DNA of 41,493 bases from Lentilactobacillus sp. Marseille-Q4993 (GTDB lineage Bacteria; Bacillota; Bacilli; Lactobacillales; Lactobacillaceae). Under the pieces are notes generated by a model. That model ran no database searches, was not told where the DNA came from, and saw nothing but the letters and a program-made list of their open reading frames with translations. The stretch lies in assembly GCF_951230165.1 (NCBI RefSeq), contig NZ_CATNVB010000023.1, positions 1-41,493 on the forward strand. The letters are read 5' to 3'. Positions 3,759 through 12,379 of the stretch are shown piece after piece. A program made the position numbers and the translations under genes. Numbering within the stretch: the stretch's first letter is position 1; each line of letters begins with the position of its first letter.

Positions 3759-4622
3759 TCAGTCTTGTTTTCGAGCCATGATCTCCCGATAAACAACTTT
3801 TTTAATCTCTGCCGTTGGCATTTTATTACCAGTCCACAATCTGAAAGATTCCGCTGCTTGATTGATCAGCATCCCAATCCCGTTGATTGCCAAATTACCA
3901 TTCTGTTTTGCTTGACTTATTAGTGGCGTTGCTAGTGGGAAGTAGATGGAGTCGAACACTACTGTTTGTGGGGATAAGAGGGCTGGGTCGATTGGAGTGT
4001 GGTCATCCCCCGCCATGCCAACGTTAGTGGCGTTGACCAGAATATCGCTTTCTCCAAGGATAGCCTTCATTGAATTTTGATTACCAAACGGGTGAACTGA
4101 TATTAGATCAGACCAGCCTTCAAGTTCCTGCTTAGTAGTCGCAAACGTTGCGTTTTGCCGTTTGAATACGTCAATCTGAGCCGCATTATTCCGGATCAAT
4201 GCCAAAATGATTGCCCGAGCGGCACCACCAGCTCCTAAAACCACCGCCCGTTTGCCTGCTACCGCAACTTGCTCATCGGCTAACGCCTGAATGAAGCCAA
4301 CCCCATCAGTACTTGTCCCAAAGAGTTTGCCGTTACGATTTACCACAGTATTGATTGCCCCTAATTTTTGGGCATCGGGTGTCACTTCGTCCATGTGGCG
4401 TAAAGCCTCGCGCTTGTAAGGCATTGACAGGTTGAAGCCGCCAATTTTCATCTGTTTCATACTATTAAAGACTGAACTAAGGTCGTCAGTTTCCGTATCA
4501 AACGCCAAGTAGGCCCCATTGATTCCCAGTTGCTTAAAAGCCTCACTATGAATCAGTGGCGACAGGCTGTGATGGGCTGGGTGGGCCAGCAATCCGTATA
4601 ATTTTGTATTACCATCAATCAT
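3759..4622 (-). CDS. aroE: Shikimate dehydrogenase
   Basis: AroE reduces 3-dehydroshikimate to shikimate with NADPH in the cytoplasm. From the ATG at 4622 the protein has 287 residues, the usual size; the longer open frame is only overlap with aroK. The shikimate-binding SLSP is at residues 19-22, the Lys of NLSMPYK is the expected catalytic residue, STDGVGF follows near residue 105, and GAGGAAR near 131 is the nucleotide-binding loop. The C-terminal NGIGMLINQAAESF.LW is typical. Its start overlaps the aroK stop by 8 bp, implying translational coupling. It is the last gene of the operon. Quinate/shikimate dehydrogenase activity in the oxidative direction is possible, but motifs fit biosynthetic AroE. 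Confidence 0.93.
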   Translation of the reverse strand: MIDGNTKLYGLLAHPAHHSLSPLIHSEAFKQLGINGAYLAFDTETDDLSSVFNSMKQMKIGGFNLSMPYKREALRHMDEVTPDAQKLGAINTVVNRNGKLFGTSTDGVGFIQALADEQVAVAGKRAVVLGAGGAARAIILALIRNNAAQIDVFKRQNATFATTKQELEGWSDLISVHPFGNQNSMKAILGESDILVNATNVGMAGDDHTPIDPALLSPQTVVFDSIYFPLATPLISQAKQNGNLAINGIGMLINQAAESFRLWTGNKMPTAEIKKVVYREIMARKQD

Positions 4623-5130
4623 TGCTAACTTTCGCCCCCATTTGGTGAATAATTTCCGTTGCGATTGCCTCGGGGGTCTTCCCATCGGTTGATATCTTAA
4701 TATCCGCAACCAAACTATATGTAAACTCACGTTGGCGCTTTAAGTCAGCCAACCCATCCCGACCCAACTTTTTGACTAAGGGACGATTAGTTTGCTGGCC
4801 AACTCTGTTCATTACGGTGTTGATGTCCGCATCAAGCCAGATGATTGGCGTTGAAGTCTGCTTCAAAATCACCTGGTTATCGGTCATCATTGGGGTGCCA
4901 CCACCAGTGGCCAGAATTCCACCAGTTTGCAGAGCACCAAACAAAGCCTCTCTTTCAGACTGCCGAAAGAAATCCTCTCCCTTGGTGGCGAAGATGTCAG
5001 GAATCGTCATGCCGTTGTTCTGTTCAATCATGCGGTCAAGGTCATGGTAACCAGCGTGAAGTATTTCAGCTAGTGCTTGGCCGACTGTTGATTTTCCACA
5101 TCCCATAAAGCCAATTAAAATAAAATTCAT
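4615..5130 (-). CDS. aroK: Shikimate kinase
   Basis: The 171-residue enzyme phosphorylates shikimate at O3 using ATP. The Walker A loop GFMGCGKST is at residues 7-15, the substrate-binding HDLD at 29-32, and ATGGGTP forms the second substrate contact. The Arg of NRPL sits in the lid region. I chose the ATG at 5130 (MNFILIGF) because AGGAG is 9 nt upstream; the ATG three codons earlier abuts AGGAG directly. It overlaps aroE by 8 bp and follows tyrA after 12 bp, so it is mid-operon. Confidence 0.93.
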   Translation of the reverse strand: MNFILIGFMGCGKSTVGQALAEILHAGYHDLDRMIEQNNGMTIPDIFATKGEDFFRQSEREALFGALQTGGILATGGGTPMMTDNQVILKQTSTPIIWLDADINTVMNRVGQQTNRPLVKKLGRDGLADLKRQREFTYSLVADIKISTDGKTPEAIATEIIHQMGAKVSND

Positions 5131-5142
5131 CCTGATCATCTC

Positions 5143-5988
5143 CTAATCAATTTCTTGTCTAATGGTTTTGGCTTGGTCGAGGTACTTTGTTAGTTCAATT
5201 TCGTTACCATCCTCAATTAATTGCGATAATTTTGCAAGCTCTTGTTGGTAATCCTTTAACCCATCAAGGACCTGATCTCGGTTCGTCAACAAGATATCCG
5301 TCCATACTTGGGGGTTCGAAGCCGCAATTCTTGTCGTGTCTTTGAACCCACCAGCAGCGGCTTGGATTACATCTGGAATTGGGTGTAGTTTGTTAGCAAC
5401 TGAATTAGCCAACGCAAACGCCGCAACGTGAGGAACATGGCTCAGTTCGGCAACAATCATGTCGTGCTCATCAGGACTGACGATTTGCCAGTGACAGCCG
5501 GCAGATGCGAGCAGCCGTTGAATCGTGGTCGTCCCCGTCTGGTCATCTACGCCCGGAACCAAAAAGTACGTCGCATTATTGAAAAGCGTGGCTGTACCAG
5601 CTGGTGCGCCAGACTTATGGGAACCGGCCATCGGGTGACCACCGATGAAGTGAACGGTATCGGGTAAATCGTGAGATGCCTCAATAACATCCCGTTTGGT
5701 ACTGCCGGCATCAGTGACGATTACTCCTGTTTTAAGCGGCAAAGTGGTGAGTTGTTGAATCTGGTCTTTGATCTGTTCCACTGGGGCGGCTAGGAAAATA
5801 ATGTCAGCCATCTCAGCTCCAGCCTTAAAATCTAGAGTCTGGTCAATGACCCCTGCCTCTTCAAGAAAATTGCCATTGATGGGATTTGGGTCAAAACCAG
5901 TGATGGTGACTGTTTGGTCAGTTTGCTTGATTATCCTGGCAATCGAACTGCCAATCAGCCCTAATCCAGAAATAAATACCGTTGTCAT
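5143..5988 (-). CDS. tyrA: Prephenate dehydrogenase
   Basis: TyrA oxidatively decarboxylates prephenate to 4-hydroxyphenylpyruvate, committing flux to tyrosine. The 281 residues start with an NAD(P) Rossmann loop GLGLIGSS at 8-15 and contain GGHPMAGSHKSG near residue 120, the conserved active-site region holding the catalytic His. No ACT domain follows, so allosteric tyrosine feedback through that domain is absent; this fits control by the upstream Tyr-codon attenuator instead. It lies 4 bp from aroA and 12 bp from aroK. No prephenate dehydratase gene is present in this operon. Confidence 0.92.
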   Translation of the reverse strand: MTTVFISGLGLIGSSIARIIKQTDQTVTITGFDPNPINGNFLEEAGVIDQTLDFKAGAEMADIIFLAAPVEQIKDQIQQLTTLPLKTGVIVTDAGSTKRDVIEASHDLPDTVHFIGGHPMAGSHKSGAPAGTATLFNNATYFLVPGVDDQTGTTTIQRLLASAGCHWQIVSPDEHDMIVAELSHVPHVAAFALANSVANKLHPIPDVIQAAAGGFKDTTRIAASNPQVWTDILLTNRDQVLDGLKDYQQELAKLSQLIEDGNEIELTKYLDQAKTIRQEID

Positions 5989-5992
5989 TCAC

Positions 5993-7285
5993 TCATCCCC
6001 TTACTAAGCTAGCTAAATCTTCAAAGAAGTTTGGGTAGGAAATGGCCACACTTTCGTCACCAATCAACGTCATATCTTTATCGGCAATCAAAGCGGCGAT
6101 TGCTAGCACCATTCCCACCCGGTGATCGCCATGACTATCAAGTGATTCGCCGGTGGCGTGCCAGGGTTTGGTGCCATCAATTACGAACCCATCGGGTAGC
6201 TCTTCAATGGCAATGCCTAGCTTTTTGAATTCCTCAGTAATCACAGCGATGCGGTCGGTTTCCTTGACTCGAAGTTCACTGGCCCCAGTGATGTGACTAA
6301 CGCCATTAGCACAAGCACAAAGTAGCGCCACTACTGGTAGCTCGTCGACCATTGAAGGAATTTCGGCTTCGGTCACTTCGATTGGTTGGAGAGCAGACGT
6401 GCTCACCGTAATGTCCGCAATTGGCTCCGTTTTGTCATCTTGGTTGCTGAAGGCTATGTTGCCACCCATGCGTTGGATAACCTTCAACAAACCAGTTCGG
6501 GTGGGATTGACCCCCACGCCCTTGAGAGTGACTTTTGAGTTAGGAACGATTAGGCCAGCAGCCAAAAAGTAAGCAGCTGAGGAAATGTCGCCGGGAACCG
6601 TCAGCTCGATACCGTGTAGTTCAGGGTTGGGTTCAACGGTAATCGTTAGTTGGTCACTGGCTGTCTTAACATCTGCACCAAACGCCCGCAACATAATTTC
6701 GGTATGATTTCGGGTAGGGAGTTTTTCCGTGATAGTGCTTGGACCATCGGCCTGCAAAGCCGCTAAGATCATCGCACTTTTCACTTGAGCTGACGCGGTT
6801 TGAAGTTGATAGCTAACGGCGTTGAGCTTGGTTCCCGTGACCGTGGCTGGTAAATGACCATTAGTTGTGGAAATGGTAGCCCCCATTGTAGCCAGTGGTT
6901 CACTCACCCGTTTCATTGGTCGTTTAGACAGCGAGTCATCCCCAATCAGTTTGGTAGTAAATGGCAGCCCACTAAGAATTCCCATCATCAGTCTTGTGGT
7001 GGTCCCGGAGTTACCCATGTCTAGCTCATGAGATGGTTGCTTAAGGCCGGCAAACCCAGCCCCTTTGATGGTAACCGTGTCATTACTGACGGCGATGGCA
7101 ACGCCCATATCCCTGAATGCCCGAATGGTCGACTTGCAATCATCGGACATCAAGAAGTGGTGAGCCACCGTCGTGCCATGACTGATTGCCCCAAACATTA
7201 CCGAGCGGTGGGAAATACTTTTATCGCCAGGAACCTCAATTGTTCCCTGGACCCCTGTGCTGATTGAACTAATTAGTTTTCTCAT
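5993..7285 (-). CDS. aroA: 3-phosphoshikimate 1-carboxyvinyltransferase (EPSP synthase)
   Basis: AroA condenses shikimate-3-phosphate with phosphoenolpyruvate. The 430 residues are full length. Landmarks are GDKSISHRS at 20-28, whose Lys and Arg bind substrate, GNSGTTTRLMMG near residue 92, DELP near 315, and KETDRI.... with the closing GDHRVGM. The GNSGTTTR loop keeps Gly in the position tied to glyphosate-sensitive versus tolerant types; I do not infer tolerance. It is 12 bp after aroC and 4 bp before tyrA, in the operon. Confidence 0.94.
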   Translation of the reverse strand: MRKLISSISTGVQGTIEVPGDKSISHRSVMFGAISHGTTVAHHFLMSDDCKSTIRAFRDMGVAIAVSNDTVTIKGAGFAGLKQPSHELDMGNSGTTTRLMMGILSGLPFTTKLIGDDSLSKRPMKRVSEPLATMGATISTTNGHLPATVTGTKLNAVSYQLQTASAQVKSAMILAALQADGPSTITEKLPTRNHTEIMLRAFGADVKTASDQLTITVEPNPELHGIELTVPGDISSAAYFLAAGLIVPNSKVTLKGVGVNPTRTGLLKVIQRMGGNIAFSNQDDKTEPIADITVSTSALQPIEVTEAEIPSMVDELPVVALLCACANGVSHITGASELRVKETDRIAVITEEFKKLGIAIEELPDGFVIDGTKPWHATGESLDSHGDHRVGMVLAIAALIADKDMTLIGDESVAISYPNFFEDLASLVRG

Positions 7286-7297
7286 CTTATCCCCACC

Positions 7298-8464
7298 TTA
7301 AAAGTTCTCAATTTCCTGTCGGTAGTCAGCAATCTGGCGTTGAAGGCGCTCAATGTTACTACCATCAAACGTGTCGGTAATGGCTTTTGCCAGTTCAATA
7401 GCAACAACGCTCTCAATCACGATTGATGCTGGCACGATTGCCGTGGTGTCGGAACGCTCAACGCTGGCTTTCTTAACTTCCTTAGTTTCAACATCAACAC
7501 TTTGAAGTGGTTTGTATAAAGTAGGGATTGGCTTCATAGCCCCCCGAACAATAATCGGCATCCCGTTGGTCATTCCACCCTCAAAGCCACCCAAGTGGTC
7601 GGTCAAGCGATCAAACCCCTGGCCTTCATGCCAATCAATTTCGTCCATTACGTCGCTACCCTTGCTCATCGCAGCTTTAAAGCCATCACCAAACTCGACC
7701 CCCTTAAATGCGTTAACGCCAACTACGGCCGCCGCAATCTTTGCGTCTAGCTTGGTGTCCCAGCTGATGTAGCTTCCTAAACCAGCAGGAACGTTGGTGG
7801 CAACTACTTTTACGATGCCGCCAAGGGTATTCCCCTCTTTTTTGGTTTCATCAATCAAGTCGTGAATCTCATCAACTTTATTCTGGTCAGTGATTCGCAG
7901 ATCGTTTTGGGTGATCGCTTCTTCAATCTCACTAACGGTCAGGTTTTTGGCGGTATCGGCTGGTTGATTACCAATCGTGTCGACAAACCCGACAATTTGA
8001 ATGTCAAGCTGATTCAGCAGTTGTTTGCAAACCGCTCCCACTACAACTCTCATCGCGGTTTCTCTGGCAGATGACCGTTCCAAAACGTTCCGAAGGTCCC
8101 GGTGGTTGTACTTCATTCCCCCAACCAAGTCAGCATGACCCGGTCGAGGACGTTCCACCTTGCGCAAGGTGTTTTCAGCAGTTTCAGGTGAAGTTGGGTC
8201 CATAATTTGACTCCAATGAGCGTGATCTCGGTTATTAACAACCATCGCTATCGGTGAACCAAGGGTTTTGCCGTGCCTAAGCCCACCAACAAATTGAACC
8301 GTGTCATGCTCGATCTTTTGCCGATTGCCCCGGCCGTAGCCACCTTGTCTTGCTGCCAACATTGCGTTGACCTCATCAACATCAATCGTTAGTCCAGCGG
8401 GAATGCCTTCAATTATCCCGGTTAGTTGGGGTCCGTGTGATTCTCCTGCAGTTAAGTAGTTCAT
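7298..8464 (-). CDS. aroC: Chorismate synthase
   Basis: AroC converts EPSP to chorismate and needs reduced FMN. The 388-residue length is standard. GESHG at 7-11, RPGHADLVGG near 130, and ERSSARETAMRV near 150 are the family signatures around the FMN and phosphate sites. Its ATG overlaps the aroQ stop by 4 bp (ATGA type), so the two are translationally coupled. It supplies chorismate directly to the mutase encoded just before it. Confidence 0.95.
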   Translation of the reverse strand: MNYLTAGESHGPQLTGIIEGIPAGLTIDVDEVNAMLAARQGGYGRGNRQKIEHDTVQFVGGLRHGKTLGSPIAMVVNNRDHAHWSQIMDPTSPETAENTLRKVERPRPGHADLVGGMKYNHRDLRNVLERSSARETAMRVVVGAVCKQLLNQLDIQIVGFVDTIGNQPADTAKNLTVSEIEEAITQNDLRITDQNKVDEIHDLIDETKKEGNTLGGIVKVVATNVPAGLGSYISWDTKLDAKIAAAVVGVNAFKGVEFGDGFKAAMSKGSDVMDEIDWHEGQGFDRLTDHLGGFEGGMTNGMPIIVRGAMKPIPTLYKPLQSVDVETKEVKKASVERSDTTAIVPASIVIESVVAIELAKAITDTFDGSNIERLQRQIADYRQEIENF

Positions 8465-8739
8465 TGTTTGCCTCCAGTAATTTCATTTTGGTATTCCTTT
8501 GATTCATCCATAATTTCTCGAAAAACATTAGCGATATATGCCTGTTTGGCAGGATCCTTAATTCTGCTCAGGACTTTATCGATTACTGCGTCCTCGCGAT
8601 TGGAATTGAAAATCGCAATACCGTTTTTTTGTTTATAATCGCCGACCTGATTAACGACCTCAAACCGTTTTTCAAGCAACAGGGTGAGCATATTATCAAG
8701 TTCGTCAATCTGGTTCCGAAAATCGTCTAATTCTGTCAT
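8461..8739 (-). CDS. aroQ: Chorismate mutase, AroQ class
   Basis: This 92-residue all-helical protein matches the stand-alone AroQ fold, which rearranges chorismate to prephenate as an intertwined homodimer. Expected active-site positions are visible: Arg8, Arg25, Lys36 and Glu49 in LDDFRNQIDELD, EKRFEVV, GDYK and NREDAV. It is not fused to a dehydratase or dehydrogenase, so prephenate must diffuse to TyrA. It is 12 bp downstream of the transporter gene and overlaps aroC by 4 bp. Confidence 0.9.
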   Translation of the reverse strand: MTELDDFRNQIDELDNMLTLLLEKRFEVVNQVGDYKQKNGIAIFNSNREDAVIDKVLSRIKDPAKQAYIANVFREIMDESKEYQNEITGGKQ

Positions 8740-8751
8740 TTAGATGGCTCC

Positions 8752-9969
8752 TTATTTTATTTTTGCGGATGATACGTGATCCATGACAAGTTTAGGGTTG
8801 GCAGCAGGAACCTTTTGGGCACAAAGCGCTGCAACTAACGCCAATCCGGTTACAAAAATACCAATAAACACGTCAAGATTCATAATCATCTGGATATTGT
8901 TAGCCAACCAGCCCGTCACTACGGGAACCGTAAAGGTCGCAATACTTCCAAACGTCATGTACAGGCCAGTGATGACTCCCTTTTGAACCGGCAACACCTT
9001 CAATAGCATGTTCAACGCCACTTGGAGAACCCCACCCGCTGCGGTAAAACCAAATGCCCAGCAAGCGATGGTAATCAACAGCTGGTTTGTCAGAACACTG
9101 ATTGAAAGGATAGCAACTAAAGAAATGGCAGTGTTTGTAAGTAAGACCTTCGCCTCAGCAACCCCCATCTTCAGGATAATGAAGGTTACAACAACGCCCA
9201 TGATTGACCCGATACTGTAGAGTGACAACAGGCCGTGAGAAGTGACCATCAATAAGTGCAGCTTTTGGTGAGCAAAAATCGTGATCCACTGGGTAAACAA
9301 AATCATGATGGCCATTGAGGTGAAACCGTAAAGTGATAAAGCAATGGCAGAGATGACTTTACGTGGTTTGGAGATAGTTACTGCTTGTTCCTCTGATTCT
9401 TCTGCCTGCTTCATCGTTGGGAAGTGAATTTTCCGAATGAGGAGGAAGTTAATAACCAACAAGATGAGGGGCAAGACGAATGACCAACCGAACCATAAAT
9501 TACGAGTTTCCAACGTTGCAACGATTAGGGGGAGAATGAATTCACCCATCGACATGAATGCCTTAATGAACACATTCGATGCACTGGAACTACCACCCAT
9601 TTCAACGAATGTTGGGTAAGTCCCTGAATCCAAGGCAGAGTTGGCAATTCCGGCTAAAACAGCGAAGAGAAAGGCAACGATGATGCTCTTGGTCAGTGGA
9701 ATCCCAATAAAGAACCCCGTGTAGCTGGCCATTCCAACCATGATGATCGTCTTGCGGCCAATTCGGTCGGATAGGTAGCCAAACAGGGAGTAAGCAATCA
9801 GCTTACCAATTCCAATTCCTGAAATGACGTACGATACAGTGGCTAATGGTGAGTGCCAAAACTTCTCGAGTTCTTGCATGTTTTGAGTCAAAATGATTAG
9901 CCCAATGCCGTGAACTAGGTAATTAAGGTACAGGCTAATTGATAGTTTGCGTTTTTCGATATGCTCCAT
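8752..9969 (-). CDS. MFS transporter, first gene of the aromatic operon
   Basis: The 405-residue protein has about 12 transmembrane segments and the MFS motif A GYLSDRIGRK at 64-73. It is the promoter-proximal gene of the shikimate/tyrosine operon, preceded by a strong AGGAGG site, and shares the attenuated leader with the aro genes. The substrate is not readable from sequence. By context it should move something related to the pathway: shikimate, quinate or dehydroshikimate inward, or an aromatic amino acid. Import of a precursor is attractive because the operon lacks the genes for DAHP synthase, dehydroquinate synthase and dehydroquinase. Confidence 0.85.
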   Translation of the reverse strand: MEHIEKRKLSISLYLNYLVHGIGLIILTQNMQELEKFWHSPLATVSYVISGIGIGKLIAYSLFGYLSDRIGRKTIIMVGMASYTGFFIGIPLTKSIIVAFLFAVLAGIANSALDSGTYPTFVEMGGSSSASNVFIKAFMSMGEFILPLIVATLETRNLWFGWSFVLPLILLVINFLLIRKIHFPTMKQAEESEEQAVTISKPRKVISAIALSLYGFTSMAIMILFTQWITIFAHQKLHLLMVTSHGLLSLYSIGSIMGVVVTFIILKMGVAEAKVLLTNTAISLVAILSISVLTNQLLITIACWAFGFTAAGGVLQVALNMLLKVLPVQKGVITGLYMTFGSIATFTVPVVTGWLANNIQMIMNLDVFIGIFVTGLALVAALCAQKVPAANPKLVMDHVSSAKIK

Positions 9970-9986
9970 AATTCTCTCCTCCTAAT

Positions 9987-10015
9987 AAAAAAGCCAGCTG
10001 GTAAATCCAGCTGGC
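9987..10015 (-). terminator. Attenuator terminator of the aromatic operon (segments 3:4)
   Basis: In the leftward RNA, GCCAGCTGG (10015-10007) pairs perfectly with CCAGCTGGC (10001-9993) around a 5-nt loop, followed at once by six U residues (9992-9987). It sits between the leader peptide and the first structural gene, whose AGGAGG lies just past the T-run. It can end transcription before the transporter gene. Confidence 0.85.
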
Positions 10016-10142
10016 CCTTCGTGGTAAAAGAAATTCACGGAGACTATCCATTTCACCCAGCTGGATCGTTACGTCTAGCTGGTAGTAAACTAATGCACTT
10101 ACCCATCAGACGCGAACGCTTGTGAGGCGCCCGCGACAAACG
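9993..10142 (-). promoter_or_regulatory. Alternative-pairing leader (antiterminator segments)
   Basis: Four copies of a CCAGCTGG-type sequence lie in the leader RNA: segment 1 CCAGCTAG (10082-10075), segment 2 CCAGCTGG (10064-10057), segment 3 (10015-10007) and segment 4 (10001-9993). Segment 2 pairs with 3 over 10 bp (ATCCAGCTGG), competing with the 9-bp 3:4 terminator; 1 pairs with 2 less well. A further 7-bp hairpin (10142-10136 with 10123-10117) follows the leader peptide stop. This layout is that of trp/his-type attenuators. The actual fold is not computed. Confidence 0.7.
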
Positions 10143-10146
10143 GACG

Positions 10147-10209
10147 CTATCTAAACCAATATAGATAGCCATAATAATAAGTGTTTAAGTTTAAAGTGAA
10201 TTGTCGCAT
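10147..10209 (-). CDS. Tyr-rich leader peptide of the aromatic operon
   Basis: An ATG at 10209, 8-9 nt after AAAGGA, opens a 20-codon frame ending in TAG at 10147-10149. The second half reads TYYYGYLYWFR: five Tyr codons, three of them consecutive, plus one Trp and one Phe within ten residues, with another Phe at position 4. It lies between a consensus promoter and an intrinsic terminator upstream of genes that make tyrosine. The inferred role is to stall ribosomes when charged tRNA-Tyr is scarce, favouring the antiterminator. No T-box consensus is seen in the leader. It is too short for usual gene callers. Confidence 0.8.
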   Translation of the reverse strand: MRQFTLNLNTYYYGYLYWFR

Positions 10210-10241
10210 GACAGTCATCCTTTCATTTGTATGTTGAATAC

Positions 10242-10270
10242 ATTAAAACAAAATTAGAATATGATGTCAA
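10242..10270 (-). promoter_or_regulatory. Promoter of the leader peptide and aromatic operon
   Basis: On the minus strand TTGACA (10270-10265) is followed after exactly 17 bp by TTTAAT (10247-10242). This is a near-consensus sigma-A promoter. Transcription would start near 10235, giving a leader of about 265 nt before the first large gene. Confidence 0.8.
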
Positions 10271-10598
10271 TGGTTAATTGTAAATTAATGATTAAGTTGA
10301 CGATACGGAACTAATTTTTTGATTAAGTAACGAAACCAGTTCTTTTACAGTACTTATGGAACGTGGTGGGCACAGCTTTGAACTTTTCTAAAATTCGAAA
10401 ATTTCAAAACCTGACCTTATCGTAAGGAGTAAACTCCTAACGATAATTTCACCACTGATAAGTATTGTTTTTTCACTGGTTTCTCAAACACACTAATCAG
10501 TTTCTTTAACCTATAATACAACAATGATTGAACAAACAACATACATAGACGTTTTCATTGCTAATCACAAAGAAACACTAGACCTTCAGCCGTGAAAT
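10271..10598. other. Intergenic region with an orphan 14-bp palindrome
   Basis: Between the aromatic promoter and the IS element no credible gene is seen. At 10417-10446 a 14-bp inverted repeat (TTATCGTAAGGAGT and its near-complement, one mismatch) surrounds a 2-nt loop. Its right arm runs into ACGATAATTTCA, the half-core seen in hairpins elsewhere in the window. No T-run adjoins it. It may be a remnant of a terminator or an operator far upstream of the promoter. Confidence 0.5.
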
Positions 10599-10741: not shown

Positions 10742-12379
10742 ATGTATAGACATTATAACAATAACCAGACCAGTTTAACATTGCCATTGGAAATTTCAAT
10801 TTCAGAAACGCACATCGTCCGCGCCATTAGCGCGTTTGTGGATACTATTCCATATAAATTAGTTTATGGTGAAGAGTCAGCCTTTGGCCGACCCCAATAT
10901 TCACCGTTAACGATGCTCAAAATGATGTTATTTGCCTACTCACGGAAAGTGTTTTCTGGGCGAAAAATTCAACAAATGGCCGAAGAAAACATTCCAATGA
11001 AATGGTTGATTGATAACAGTCTGTTAAGTGACGAAGCGATCTTTATCGATGGCACCAAAATCCTCTCCGATGCCAATAAGTATTCTTTTGTTTGGCGAAA
11101 AAGCACGGAAAAATTTGAAAGTAAGTTGGACCAGAAAACACAGAACTTGTTTAACGAGTTGATTCAAAATAAAGTCAATCTAGCAGTAGAAAGTGAAATG
11201 GATCCGACGGATCCCAAAACACTTGAAGCTGAAGTGACTGCACTGGACACCGAGATTAATGAATTAGATCAACAAATCAAAACCGAAAAGGTGATTCCTG
11301 GCGGATCAGCCAGGAAACAACGTCGTCGTAAGTTAAAACATTTTCGTCATCTAGTACGAGATGAATACTTACCCCGTAAACAAAAATATCGCCAATATCA
11401 TAAGTGGTTCGGTAATCGGACCATTTTCTCTAAAACGGACCATGATGCAACTTTTATGCGGATGAAAGAAGATCCGATGCAAAATGGCCAGTTGAAGCCG
11501 GGGTGCAATCTGCAAATCGCTACCCAATCACAATTTATCCTCTACTATCAAGTTAATCAACGTCCTACGGACCAACGCACTTTAATTTCATTTTTAAAAG
11601 CAATGAACTTTACTCAAACTCCAGTTAAATATATTGTCGCCGATGCAGGATACGGAAGTGAACAAAATTATAAATTTATCGAAGATGAGTTAGGAAAAGT
11701 GCCATTAATTCCGTACACGATGTACTTAAAGGAGCAATCAACAAAATATCAAACTGATTCTAGTAAAGTGATGAACTGGGAATATCACTCAGACGAAGAT
11801 TACTATGTGGATAATCACAATATTCGTTTTTCATATTATGGTCGTAGTCATCGAAAAGATACGAGCGGATTTGAACGTGATTTTAAAGTATATCAAGCCG
11901 ATGAGTATGATGATCCAGAGGGTTACTACTGGTCAACAACCCAATCCGGTAACCAACGAAGAATCAAGATCAACCCCAAATGGGAATCACAAAAGAAATA
12001 TGTACGTGAACAGCTTTCAAGTCCTGAAGGAAAGGCTATTTTCGCTAAGCGAAAATTAGAAGATGAGCCAGCCTTCGGAAATTTGAAGGCTAATTTGCGT
12101 TTCCGTCGATTATCGGTACGTGGATTAAGACAAGTAAATAATGGATTAGGGATTATCCTAATGGCAGCAAATATGAATAAATTGGCCTTGATGATGGCCA
12201 ATTTTTCTTATTTTTTACTGATAAAAGAAAAACTGGATCATATTTTTCAAAAAGTCATGAAAAATATGATCCAGTTTATTTATTGGCGGGACTTATGTCC
12301 CGGCCTCAGGGTAGTATTTGAGACTACAGGCTCAAATCTATCCCCACGGCGTTCCAAGGTCAAAGTGGTTCGTGTTTAG
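10742..12379 (+). CDS. IS1182-family transposase (C-terminus reads out of the element)
   Basis: This DDE-type transposase has the characteristic start with LPLEISI and P.YSPLTMLKMMLFAYSRKVFSGRKI, an FIDGTK segment near residue 100, and a later IVADAGYGSE near residue 300. The ATG at 10742 has AGGAG 9 nt upstream. The open frame runs to 12379, past the element's right end at 12307, so about the last 24 residues are host-derived. A T6 run at 12211-12216 is suspicious: with one T fewer, the frame would stop at 12219-12221, just before the 20-bp hairpin, giving a 493-residue protein. The extended tail (after about residue 490) is therefore probably a frameshift artefact or mutation. Activity is uncertain. 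Confidence 0.85.
   Translation: MYRHYNNNQTSLTLPLEISISETHIVRAISAFVDTIPYKLVYGEESAFGRPQYSPLTMLKMMLFAYSRKVFSGRKIQQMAEENIPMKWLIDNSLLSDEAIFIDGTKILSDANKYSFVWRKSTEKFESKLDQKTQNLFNELIQNKVNLAVESEMDPTDPKTLEAEVTALDTEINELDQQIKTEKVIPGGSARKQRRRKLKHFRHLVRDEYLPRKQKYRQYHKWFGNRTIFSKTDHDATFMRMKEDPMQNGQLKPGCNLQIATQSQFILYYQVNQRPTDQRTLISFLKAMNFTQTPVKYIVADAGYGSEQNYKFIEDELGKVPLIPYTMYLKEQSTKYQTDSSKVMNWEYHSDEDYYVDNHNIRFSYYGRSHRKDTSGFERDFKVYQADEYDDPEGYYWSTTQSGNQRRIKINPKWESQKKYVREQLSSPEGKAIFAKRKLEDEPAFGNLKANLRFRRLSVRGLRQVNNGLGIILMAANMNKLALMMANFSYFLLIKEKLDHIFQKVMKNMIQFIYWRDLCPGLRVVFETTGSNLSPRRSKVKVVRV
12230..12277. terminator. Perfect 20-bp inverted repeat near the IS1182 right end
   Basis: AAACTGGATCATATTTTTCA (12230-12249) is followed by an 8-nt loop and its exact complement (12258-12277). 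It lies just inside the right terminal repeat and would end the transposase transcript; in the present frame it is also translated, which is unusual and supports a lost stop codon upstream. Confidence 0.65.

Follow-up and report, generated by a model that had tools for sequence, protein, structure and literature searches.

A candidate relay attenuator with tyrosine codons upstream of the shikimate/tyrosine operon of a Lentilactobacillus strain and in relatives among the Lactobacillales

The window analysed here, i.e. the whole stretch of 41,493 nucleotides (nt) of contig NZ_CATNVB010000023.1 from Lentilactobacillus sp. Marseille-Q4993 (RefSeq assembly GCF_951230165.1), carries on its minus strand an operon of the order MFS-aroQ-aroC-aroA-tyrA-aroK-aroE, the first gene encoding a transporter of the major facilitator superfamily (MFS). 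Our subject is the leader of this operon, which a first-pass annotation had read as an attenuator governed by a leader peptide with Tyr codons and by four pairing segments. Promoter, leader open reading frame (ORF) and genes are located as follows.

10242..10270, minus strand: promoter, TTGACA (10270-10265), 17 nt, TTTAAT (10247-10242), from the sequence
10147..10209, minus strand: leader ORF MRQFTLNLNTYYYGYLYWFR, 20 codons, with the end YYYGYLYWFR, from the sequence and the leader peptides of relatives
8752..9969, minus strand: MFS transporter, first gene (PF07690)
8461..8739, minus strand: aroQ, chorismate mutase (TIGR01805, over cut-off)
7298..8464, minus strand: aroC, chorismate synthase (TIGR00033, over cut-off)
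5993..7285, minus strand: aroA, 5-enolpyruvylshikimate-3-phosphate synthase (TIGR01356, over cut-off)
5143..5988, minus strand: tyrA, prephenate dehydrogenase (PF02153, PDH_N; PF20463, PDH_C)
4615..5139, minus strand: aroK, shikimate kinase (shikimate kinase models, under their cut-offs)
3759..4730, minus strand: aroE, shikimate dehydrogenase (TIGR00507, over cut-off)

In line with the annotation, we found on the minus strand the promoter, a ribosome site (AAAGGA, 10223-10218) 5′ of the 20-codon ORF, and four CCAGCTGG-type segments. Counted from the stop, the Tyr codons occupy positions -10, -9, -8, -6, and -4. Likewise, the proposed antiterminator of 10 base pairs (bp; 10066-10057 with 10014-10005) and the competing terminator stem of 9 bp (10015-10007 with 10001-9993), followed by T6, are present on this strand, and two-sided changes among relatives indicate that both are conserved. 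The 266-nt leader folds with -96.6 kcal/mol compared to a mean of -64.5 kcal/mol for dinucleotide shuffles (z -6.4), and none of 200 shuffles was as good. The TTGAC(A/G)-17-TTTAAT arrangement is also seen by eye 5′ of the leaders of many relatives. The promoter is absent from the output of a pattern scan, whose rule requires A as the second base of the second hexamer; the terminator is absent as well, presumably on account of a stem that can run on into the T stretch. The operon had been described as ending in tyrosine synthesis; this has to be corrected, as tyrA is the fifth gene and is followed by aroK and aroE, the true start of the latter probably lying downstream of the listed GTG. As had been proposed, TyrA lacks an ACT domain: the Pfam scan returned PDH_N, PDH_C, and two overlapping nucleotide-binding families. 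On the other strand, approximately 470 bases upstream of the promoter, an ORF of 545 amino acids (10742-12379) looks by eye like an insertion sequence transposase.

Since many T-boxes are present in the same genome (43 matches, of which 14 are over the cut-off), a T-box sensing uncharged tRNA-Tyr might have been expected at this operon. None of the 43 matches is located on the contig of the window (C23), and no Rfam family, the T-box included, reached gathering level anywhere in the window. When positions 9950-10280 were scanned at E values up to 10, nine Rfam matches were obtained, all far under their gathering scores and none of them a T-box. Similarly, in 16 loci of relatives no family reached gathering level at the leader. 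Thus, control by a T-box is extremely unlikely here; the annotation likewise had seen no T-box motif. The sole match at gathering level in these 16 loci, Srn266 (L144:2900-3007), lies about 1.2 kb off the leader.

To follow the leader beyond the window, 100 related genomes were searched for the MFS protein, and 30 loci (L002-L031) were inspected. An aromatic-rich leader ORF, e.g. MTTQRQQLNAYYYGYAWFK, is present upstream of the MFS gene in 21 of them; in nine (L010, L021, L022, L025, L026, and L028-L031) it is not found directly upstream. In three genomes without a close MFS relative (L035, L038, L041), the leader stands directly before aroQ-aroC. These three and 20 of the 21 MFS leaders were aligned (alignment A1, 23 leaders). 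The orthologous leaders show a conserved Tyr or aromatic leader peptide and compensatory pairing and no T-box, as the annotation had anticipated. The segments downstream of the ORF are given below with their positions in the window.

10141..10147, minus strand: s1, GCGTCCG, partner s2 (helix A), begins at the last base of the stop codon; covariation
10127..10135, minus strand: s2, CGCGGGCGC, partners s1 (A) or s3 (B); covariation
10108..10119, minus strand: s3, GCGTTCGCGTCT, partners s2 (B) or s4 (C); covariation
10071..10082, minus strand: s4, CCAGCTAGACGT, partners s3 (C) or s5 (D); covariation
10057..10066, minus strand: s5, ATCCAGCTGG, partners s4 (D) or s6 (E, antiterminator); covariation
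10005..10015, minus strand: s6, GCCAGCTGGAT, partners s5 (E) or s7 (T); covariation
9987..10001, minus strand: s7, CCAGCTGGC and T6, 3′ arm and U tract of the terminator; sequence and covariation

In A1, seven segments thus follow the stop codon and neighbours pair, giving helices A (s1:s2), B (s2:s3), C (s3:s4), D (s4:s5), E (s5:s6), and T (s6:s7). Judged from compensatory changes, these helices are kept as two mutually exclusive sets, A+C+E corresponding to read-through and B+D+T to the terminator. For A+C+E, 97.3% of 552 alignment cells were paired and two-sided changes occurred in 10 of 24 pairs; none of 500 shuffles matched A1 in paired cells, in two-sided changes or in covariation score, the number of pair types being the weaker measure (47 of 500 shuffles as high). 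For B+D+T, 95.5% of 780 cells were paired with two-sided changes in 17 of 34 pairs, and no shuffle out of 500 was as high on any measure. When partners were slid as a control, 26-39% of the cells were paired. Some of this covariation is indirect, because neighbouring helices share arms; a clean case for helix C is provided by columns 114:165 of A1, where C-G is replaced by U-A in 4 leaders and column 165 lies outside D. The same picture was obtained with 32 diverse leaders (A4), aligned by a model that held the structure of B and D only. Here, A+C was paired in 95.0% of 459 cells, with two-sided changes in 8 of 15 pairs (2 of 500 shuffles as high; for pair types, 109 of 500), and B+D in 93.0%, with two-sided changes in 16 of 22 pairs. 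The terminator before the first gene is exclusive with the antiterminator, as E and T share s6 and two-sided changes keep both.

A plain four-segment attenuator, in which s4 to s7 alone matter and the upstream hairpins are passive, would be in keeping with the annotation, and s4:s5, s5:s6, and s6:s7 are indeed real and conserved. However, two-sided changes keep A, B, and C as well as D, E, and T, and such a scheme would leave the Tyr codons unlinked to s4. We therefore consider it improbable; the four segments proposed stand, and appear to form the last part of a seven-segment relay. Further helices were tried and dropped. Helix 0, between GCUAU in the ORF and GUAGC at the stop, has 3-4 of its 5 pairs in 8 of the 23 leaders, with unconvincing compensation among the 23, and hairpins c and F, inside the loops of C and E, are complete in some leaders only.

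The annotation had raised the doubt that the Tyr codons lie approximately 80 nt from the first of its segments. Two features answer this doubt, namely the start of s1 at the stop codon and a long-range pairing between the ORF and a segment in the loop of helix C.

10176..10193, minus strand: Za, part of the ORF (LNLNTY codons), pairs with Zb; fold and duplex test
10086..10103, minus strand: Zb, complement of the leader ORF, located between s3 and s4 in the helix C loop; fold, duplex test and ORF swaps

In 97 leaders, the ORF/Zb duplex had a mean energy of -16.9 kcal/mol within the own genome versus -11.8 kcal/mol with partners from mismatched genomes, and the own duplex surpassed the mismatched mean in 85 of the 97. 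Compared to dinucleotide shuffles, the mean z was -2.4, and 64 of the 97 leaders had p values of 0.05 or less. For the leader in the window the signal is modest (z -1.61 overall, -2.37 for the 5′ part and 0.10 for the 3′ part). When the ORF was swapped for four others, the expected number of ORF/Zb pairs dropped from 10.7 to 3.4 (own value higher in 74 of 93 leaders), and helix C, folded without a ribosome, rose from 2.3 to 4.5 pairs (own value lower in 77 of 93). With a ribosome placed at -7, helix C had 4.6 pairs with the own ORF versus 5.7 with swapped ORFs. These comparisons indicate that ORF/Zb complementarity co-varies across relatives and that the ORF serves as one arm of a conserved helix; through this helix, the Tyr codons are connected with the switch.

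The effect of ribosome position was assessed by folding computations on 93 leaders (L004, L005, L147, and L152 were left out; in L005, translation passes the usual stop), in which the ribosome was represented by masking the RNA between 18 nt upstream and 12 nt downstream of the A-site codon's first base, with s4 as the last segment transcribed. The mean number of helix C pairs was 3.4-3.8 with the ribosome at -13 to -10, 4.3-4.6 at -9 to -4, 3.7 at -3, 1.4 at -2, 0.51 at -1, and 0.57 at the stop, compared to 2.34 without a ribosome, so that the profile is steep toward the stop and shallow on the other side. Taking the best of positions -9 to -5, a choice among five that biases toward the claim, helix C exceeded the stop value in 88 of 93 leaders and the value without ribosome in 89; at -7 alone, it was above the stop value in 70 and below it in 8. 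In the window leader, helix C had 0.01 pairs without a ribosome, 0.1-0.6 at -13 to -11, 6.7 at -10, 7.1-7.8 at -9 to -5, 6.3 at -4, 3.3 at -3, 4.2 at -2, and 3.4 at the stop. Thus, in these computations the fold of the RNA depends on the position of the ribosome on the regulatory codons.

Two results deviate from this picture. At -1, the window leader has 6.8 helix C pairs, which does not fit the profile, and the effect of ribosome position is not seen in equilibrium folds of longer transcripts. Correspondingly, a switch working at equilibrium alone fails: with s5 present, C exceeded D in at most 10 of 93 leaders at any position, and in 21 of the 23 full leaders T reached 0.8 or more although s1 was free. 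Before s7 is made, E was higher with s1 free than with s1 masked in 18 of 23 leaders, passing 0.5 in just 7 leaders with s1 free and in 4 with s1 masked. The ON state would therefore have to depend on the order in which the segments emerge.

A version of this element sensing Tyr had been called unusual for a lactic acid bacterium. In fact, the element is common. A covariance model of the RNA after the stop, including the stop and the last five bases of the ORF (R1), matched 173 of 397 genomes of the family at E values up to 0.01, covering 27 of 40 genera, and 40 of 246 genomes in the order. With a second covariance model (R2), 243 of 395 Lactobacillales genomes from 61 of 80 genera were matched at E values up to 0.001, with up to five copies per genome. 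In a class-wide sample (E up to 1e-4), R2 matched 32 of 398 genomes, 29 of them in the order, including that of the window, and 3 outside. Two of the latter look like genuine elements, one with YYFSYFR before a PF04392 protein (L364) and one with YYGFYYYFR before a fusion of an MFS transporter and chorismate mutase (L366). In the third (L365, G747), an HHHH leader stands before hisZ; by eye, its RNA is a shorter version in which T6 directly follows D, the parity of the chain being unchanged. An exact-pattern scan of named genomes yielded 106 stretches; among the 80 listed, 75 belong to Streptococcus or Enterococcus, including S. pneumoniae, S. suis, and S. mitis, and one each to Vagococcus, Schleiferilactobacillus, and Atopostipes. 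The matches in a Desulfobacteraceae genome (L190) and a Clostridia bin (L232) are probably due to chance.

Among the nine MFS loci without a leader ORF directly upstream, R2 gave no match in eight; in the remaining one, L010, just two weak overlapping matches on opposite strands were obtained. In L021 and L022, the element is located further upstream in the same genome. In L010 (G006), a sequence that resembles a transposase by eye separates the front part of the leader (R1 match at G006:C1:1015336-1015438) from the terminator adjoining the MFS gene, which by eye would be a natural disruption of the relay. The locus L020 has an aromatic-rich ORF and a different RNA without R2 match, and was kept out of A1.

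In the R1 matches fetched from the family, a sequence resembling a Shine-Dalgarno (SD) site together with a short ORF is found 5′ of the first gene, and the ORF ends at the same position of the R1 model in 58 of 59, that of L108 ending five bases earlier. In L321, L322, and L349, the stop lies 9 bases further 3′ (endings FRNCL, LRCCL, and FRCCL), as by eye it does in L152, where the same leader has its stop displaced 3′; consequently, s1 overlaps the last codons. Peptides were inspected in a subset of the R1 and R2 loci. The R1 matches L155, L162, L163, and L164 (E 3.6e-4 to 0.008) showed no leader by eye and no called peptide, and were excluded from codon counts; L082 is a ten-base placeholder, and L152 and L351 have no called peptide.

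The leader codons were compared with the genes that follow. For this purpose, 139 loci were grouped by the sequence of the first gene and representatives were identified; adding 22 leaders of A1 and removing four false matches and two without a called peptide leaves 155 loci with a called peptide. Behind leaders with Ile, Leu, and Val codons, the first genes are livJ-type (8), ilvE (4), ilvA (3), and ilvB (2). Behind Phe/Tyr leaders, they encode TrpX-like proteins (PF04392; 52, two of them without a called peptide), MFS transporters (27), aroE (21), aroC (6, mostly with aroQ before aroC), a small protein without Pfam match (5), and a large solute-binding protein (3), with single cases of aroA, pheA, an NhaC-type antiporter, and a D-2-hydroxyacid dehydrogenase. 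Among the last nine codons, Ile/Leu/Val codons number 4 or more and aromatic codons no more than 1 in the 17 leaders before genes for branched-chain amino acids (BCAA); in the 138 others, aromatic codons number 3 or more and Ile/Leu/Val codons no more than 2, and the two groups do not overlap; 'others' here means every locus not before a BCAA gene, including a few first genes of uncertain role, and many of the 155 loci are closely related to one another. Within the aromatic leaders, Tyr exceeds Phe in the aro group and the remainder (3.5 versus 1.8), Phe exceeds Tyr before TrpX-like proteins (3.3 versus 1.5), and Phe occurs without Tyr before the small protein (3.4 versus 0). Leaders with Trp codons were found at three loci, before transporters that are alike by eye (L367, L369, L370).

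Several loci merit mention in their own right. The Trp-codon peptides of L367, L369, and L370 read TWQNWRR, AWQFWRR, and AWQNWRR, and by eye their RNAs carry a terminator-like helix D plus a later terminator; the L369 transporter is over the TrpX cut-off (452 versus 390 bits), and L077, a relative with a Phe leader, is under it (301 bits). The small protein (L086, L107, L113, L118, L148/L167; approximately 176-207 amino acids, starting near IHTLGPxxTDSxAA, behind Phe-rich leaders without Tyr) matched nothing in Pfam or NCBIfam in any of four forms searched and may be a divergent enzyme of phenylalanine synthesis. In L366, the MFS transporter is fused to chorismate mutase (728-2185; PF07690 and PF01817), and other MFS first genes of 480-495 amino acids (L084, L085, L097) may be such fusions as well; in the window, the two are separate neighbouring genes. 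In L307, the Phe leader VFFNSNFR precedes the D-2-hydroxyacid dehydrogenase, perhaps a phenyllactate enzyme.

The codon data bear on two further explanations. In TnaC-type systems, a ligand induces stalling by the nascent leader peptide, and a mechanism of this kind, independent of a lack of charged tRNA, would agree with a peptide end that varies little inside a class, as in YYYGYAWF(K/R) or FAFSFFFR. Across classes, however, it is the codon type and not one residue pattern that is conserved, biosynthetic genes need starvation to mean ON, which is the direction of tRNA shortage, and the pairing of the ORF's own RNA constrains the peptide; we thus deem ligand-induced stalling very unlikely. 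The same low standing is given to a metabolite riboswitch responding to aromatic amino acids, an idea put forward in 2015 for the probable streptococcal version. In its favour, the good conservation of the RNA after the stop and the RNA sequencing data from Streptococcus agalactiae, with premature termination and a long read-through transcript (PMC4448216), could be adduced. Against it stand the short ORF with its SD-like sequence and constant end in the model, and the ORF itself as a strand of a conserved helix. Moreover, closely similar RNA bears Ile/Leu/Val codons before BCAA genes, a finding for which an aromatic aptamer cannot account.

Taken together, the leader in the window is very probably a ribosome-mediated transcription attenuator that senses mainly tyrosine through its Tyr codons and works as a relay, and in this respect the first-pass annotation was right in kind. 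Comparison among relatives supports the leader peptide with its codons, terminator and antiterminator, both exclusive helix sets, the ORF/Zb complementarity and the match between codons and genes; the dependence on ribosome position is predicted by folding. As to the succession of steps while the RNA is being made and the reaction to tyrosine, we infer the following. Without a ribosome, the ORF would pair with Zb (helix Z), and Z would cross and block C, so that D and then the terminator T would form and the operon would be OFF. With sufficient tyrosine, the ribosome at the stop codon would cover s1 and prevent A; B, then D, then T would follow, and the operon would likewise be OFF. When tyrosine is short, the ribosome would stall on the Tyr codons, at a distance of roughly 4-10 codons from the stop, covering the ORF strand of Z and leaving s1 free, so that A could form. 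Formation of A would leave s3 for C and s5 for E; with s6 taken by E, RNA polymerase would enter the aro-tyr operon, which would be ON.

Beyond the window, we consider it reasonably likely that the Lactobacillales possess an order-wide, as yet unnamed class of relay attenuators, in which the ORF is both codon sensor and switch strand and specificity changes by swapping codons together with their complement. In lactic acid bacteria, the control of amino acid genes is usually attributed to T-boxes and protein regulators. If the proposal is true, specificities for Tyr, Phe, Trp, Ile/Leu/Val, and perhaps His would be served by one unchanged downstream domino of helices, and leader codons would predict the cargo of nearby transporters, TrpX-like proteins behind Phe/Tyr leaders being importers of Phe and Tyr. 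Elements taken for riboswitches for aromatic amino acids would be re-read, and the element would offer a ready test of how far RNA can relay a ribosome's position.

Two 5′ elements of S. agalactiae, at gbs2033 and gbs1262 before paralogous ABC transporter operons, were described as possible new riboswitches for aromatic amino acids with conservation among Lactobacillales, and that of gbs2033 was noted at the aroFBC-tyrA operon of Enterococcus faecium as well (PMC4448216); the main text of that paper contains no word starting with 'peptide'. Similarly, we observed Phe/Tyr leaders before PF04392-type transporters in streptococci and, in L157 and L160, before aroE followed by a gene resembling, by eye, a 3-deoxy-D-arabino-heptulosonate-7-phosphate synthase gene, and Trp leaders before TrpX-type transporters. 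Going by their description and not by sequence, the gbs2033 and gbs1262 elements probably correspond to the present element in its Phe/Tyr and Trp forms. For Staphylococcus aureus ilvD, a Leu-responsive leader peptide rich in Ile and Leu codons is known, and BCAA leader-peptide attenuators predicted for L. lactis and Streptococcus are cited there (PMC5794164); the ilvD scheme is a different, shorter rearrangement, and the accessible text of that paper proposes no RNA common to BCAA and aromatic leaders. Naville and Gautheret (2010) reported His leader peptides in bacilli, with no words starting with aromatic, tyrosine or phenylalanine in the main text (PMC2965389). His attenuators are described in other Firmicutes, and in Lactobacillales T-boxes are reported for the his genes (PMC9413887), and in the Bacillus cereus group tyrosine synthesis is under T-box control, several streptococci having BCAA synthesis without T-box control (PMC2494555). 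In the open-licence literature, as far as its text was accessible, no Tyr or Phe leader peptide was found described for aro, tyr or TrpX operons in Lactobacillales, which is weak evidence of absence.

From the sequence comparisons, the length of the relay, the role of the ORF as a strand of the switch, and the single RNA scaffold with exchangeable codons across the order appear to be new. Enteric attenuators of the trp, phe, and leu type have four segments forming three helices. As in these, a stalled ribosome would lead to the antiterminator, and a ribosome at the stop, or none, to the terminator; unlike these, the element in the window would employ a longer relay. The enteric his attenuator has six segments, with codons overlapping the first. 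In its scheme, the element in the window resembles it, with a leader peptide whose codons specify the amino acid under control, a set of more than four RNA segments that split into two exclusive groups, and an intrinsic terminator. In contrast to the his attenuator, the leader in the window has seven segments, the first of which starts at the stop codon, and an additional segment complementary to the ORF.
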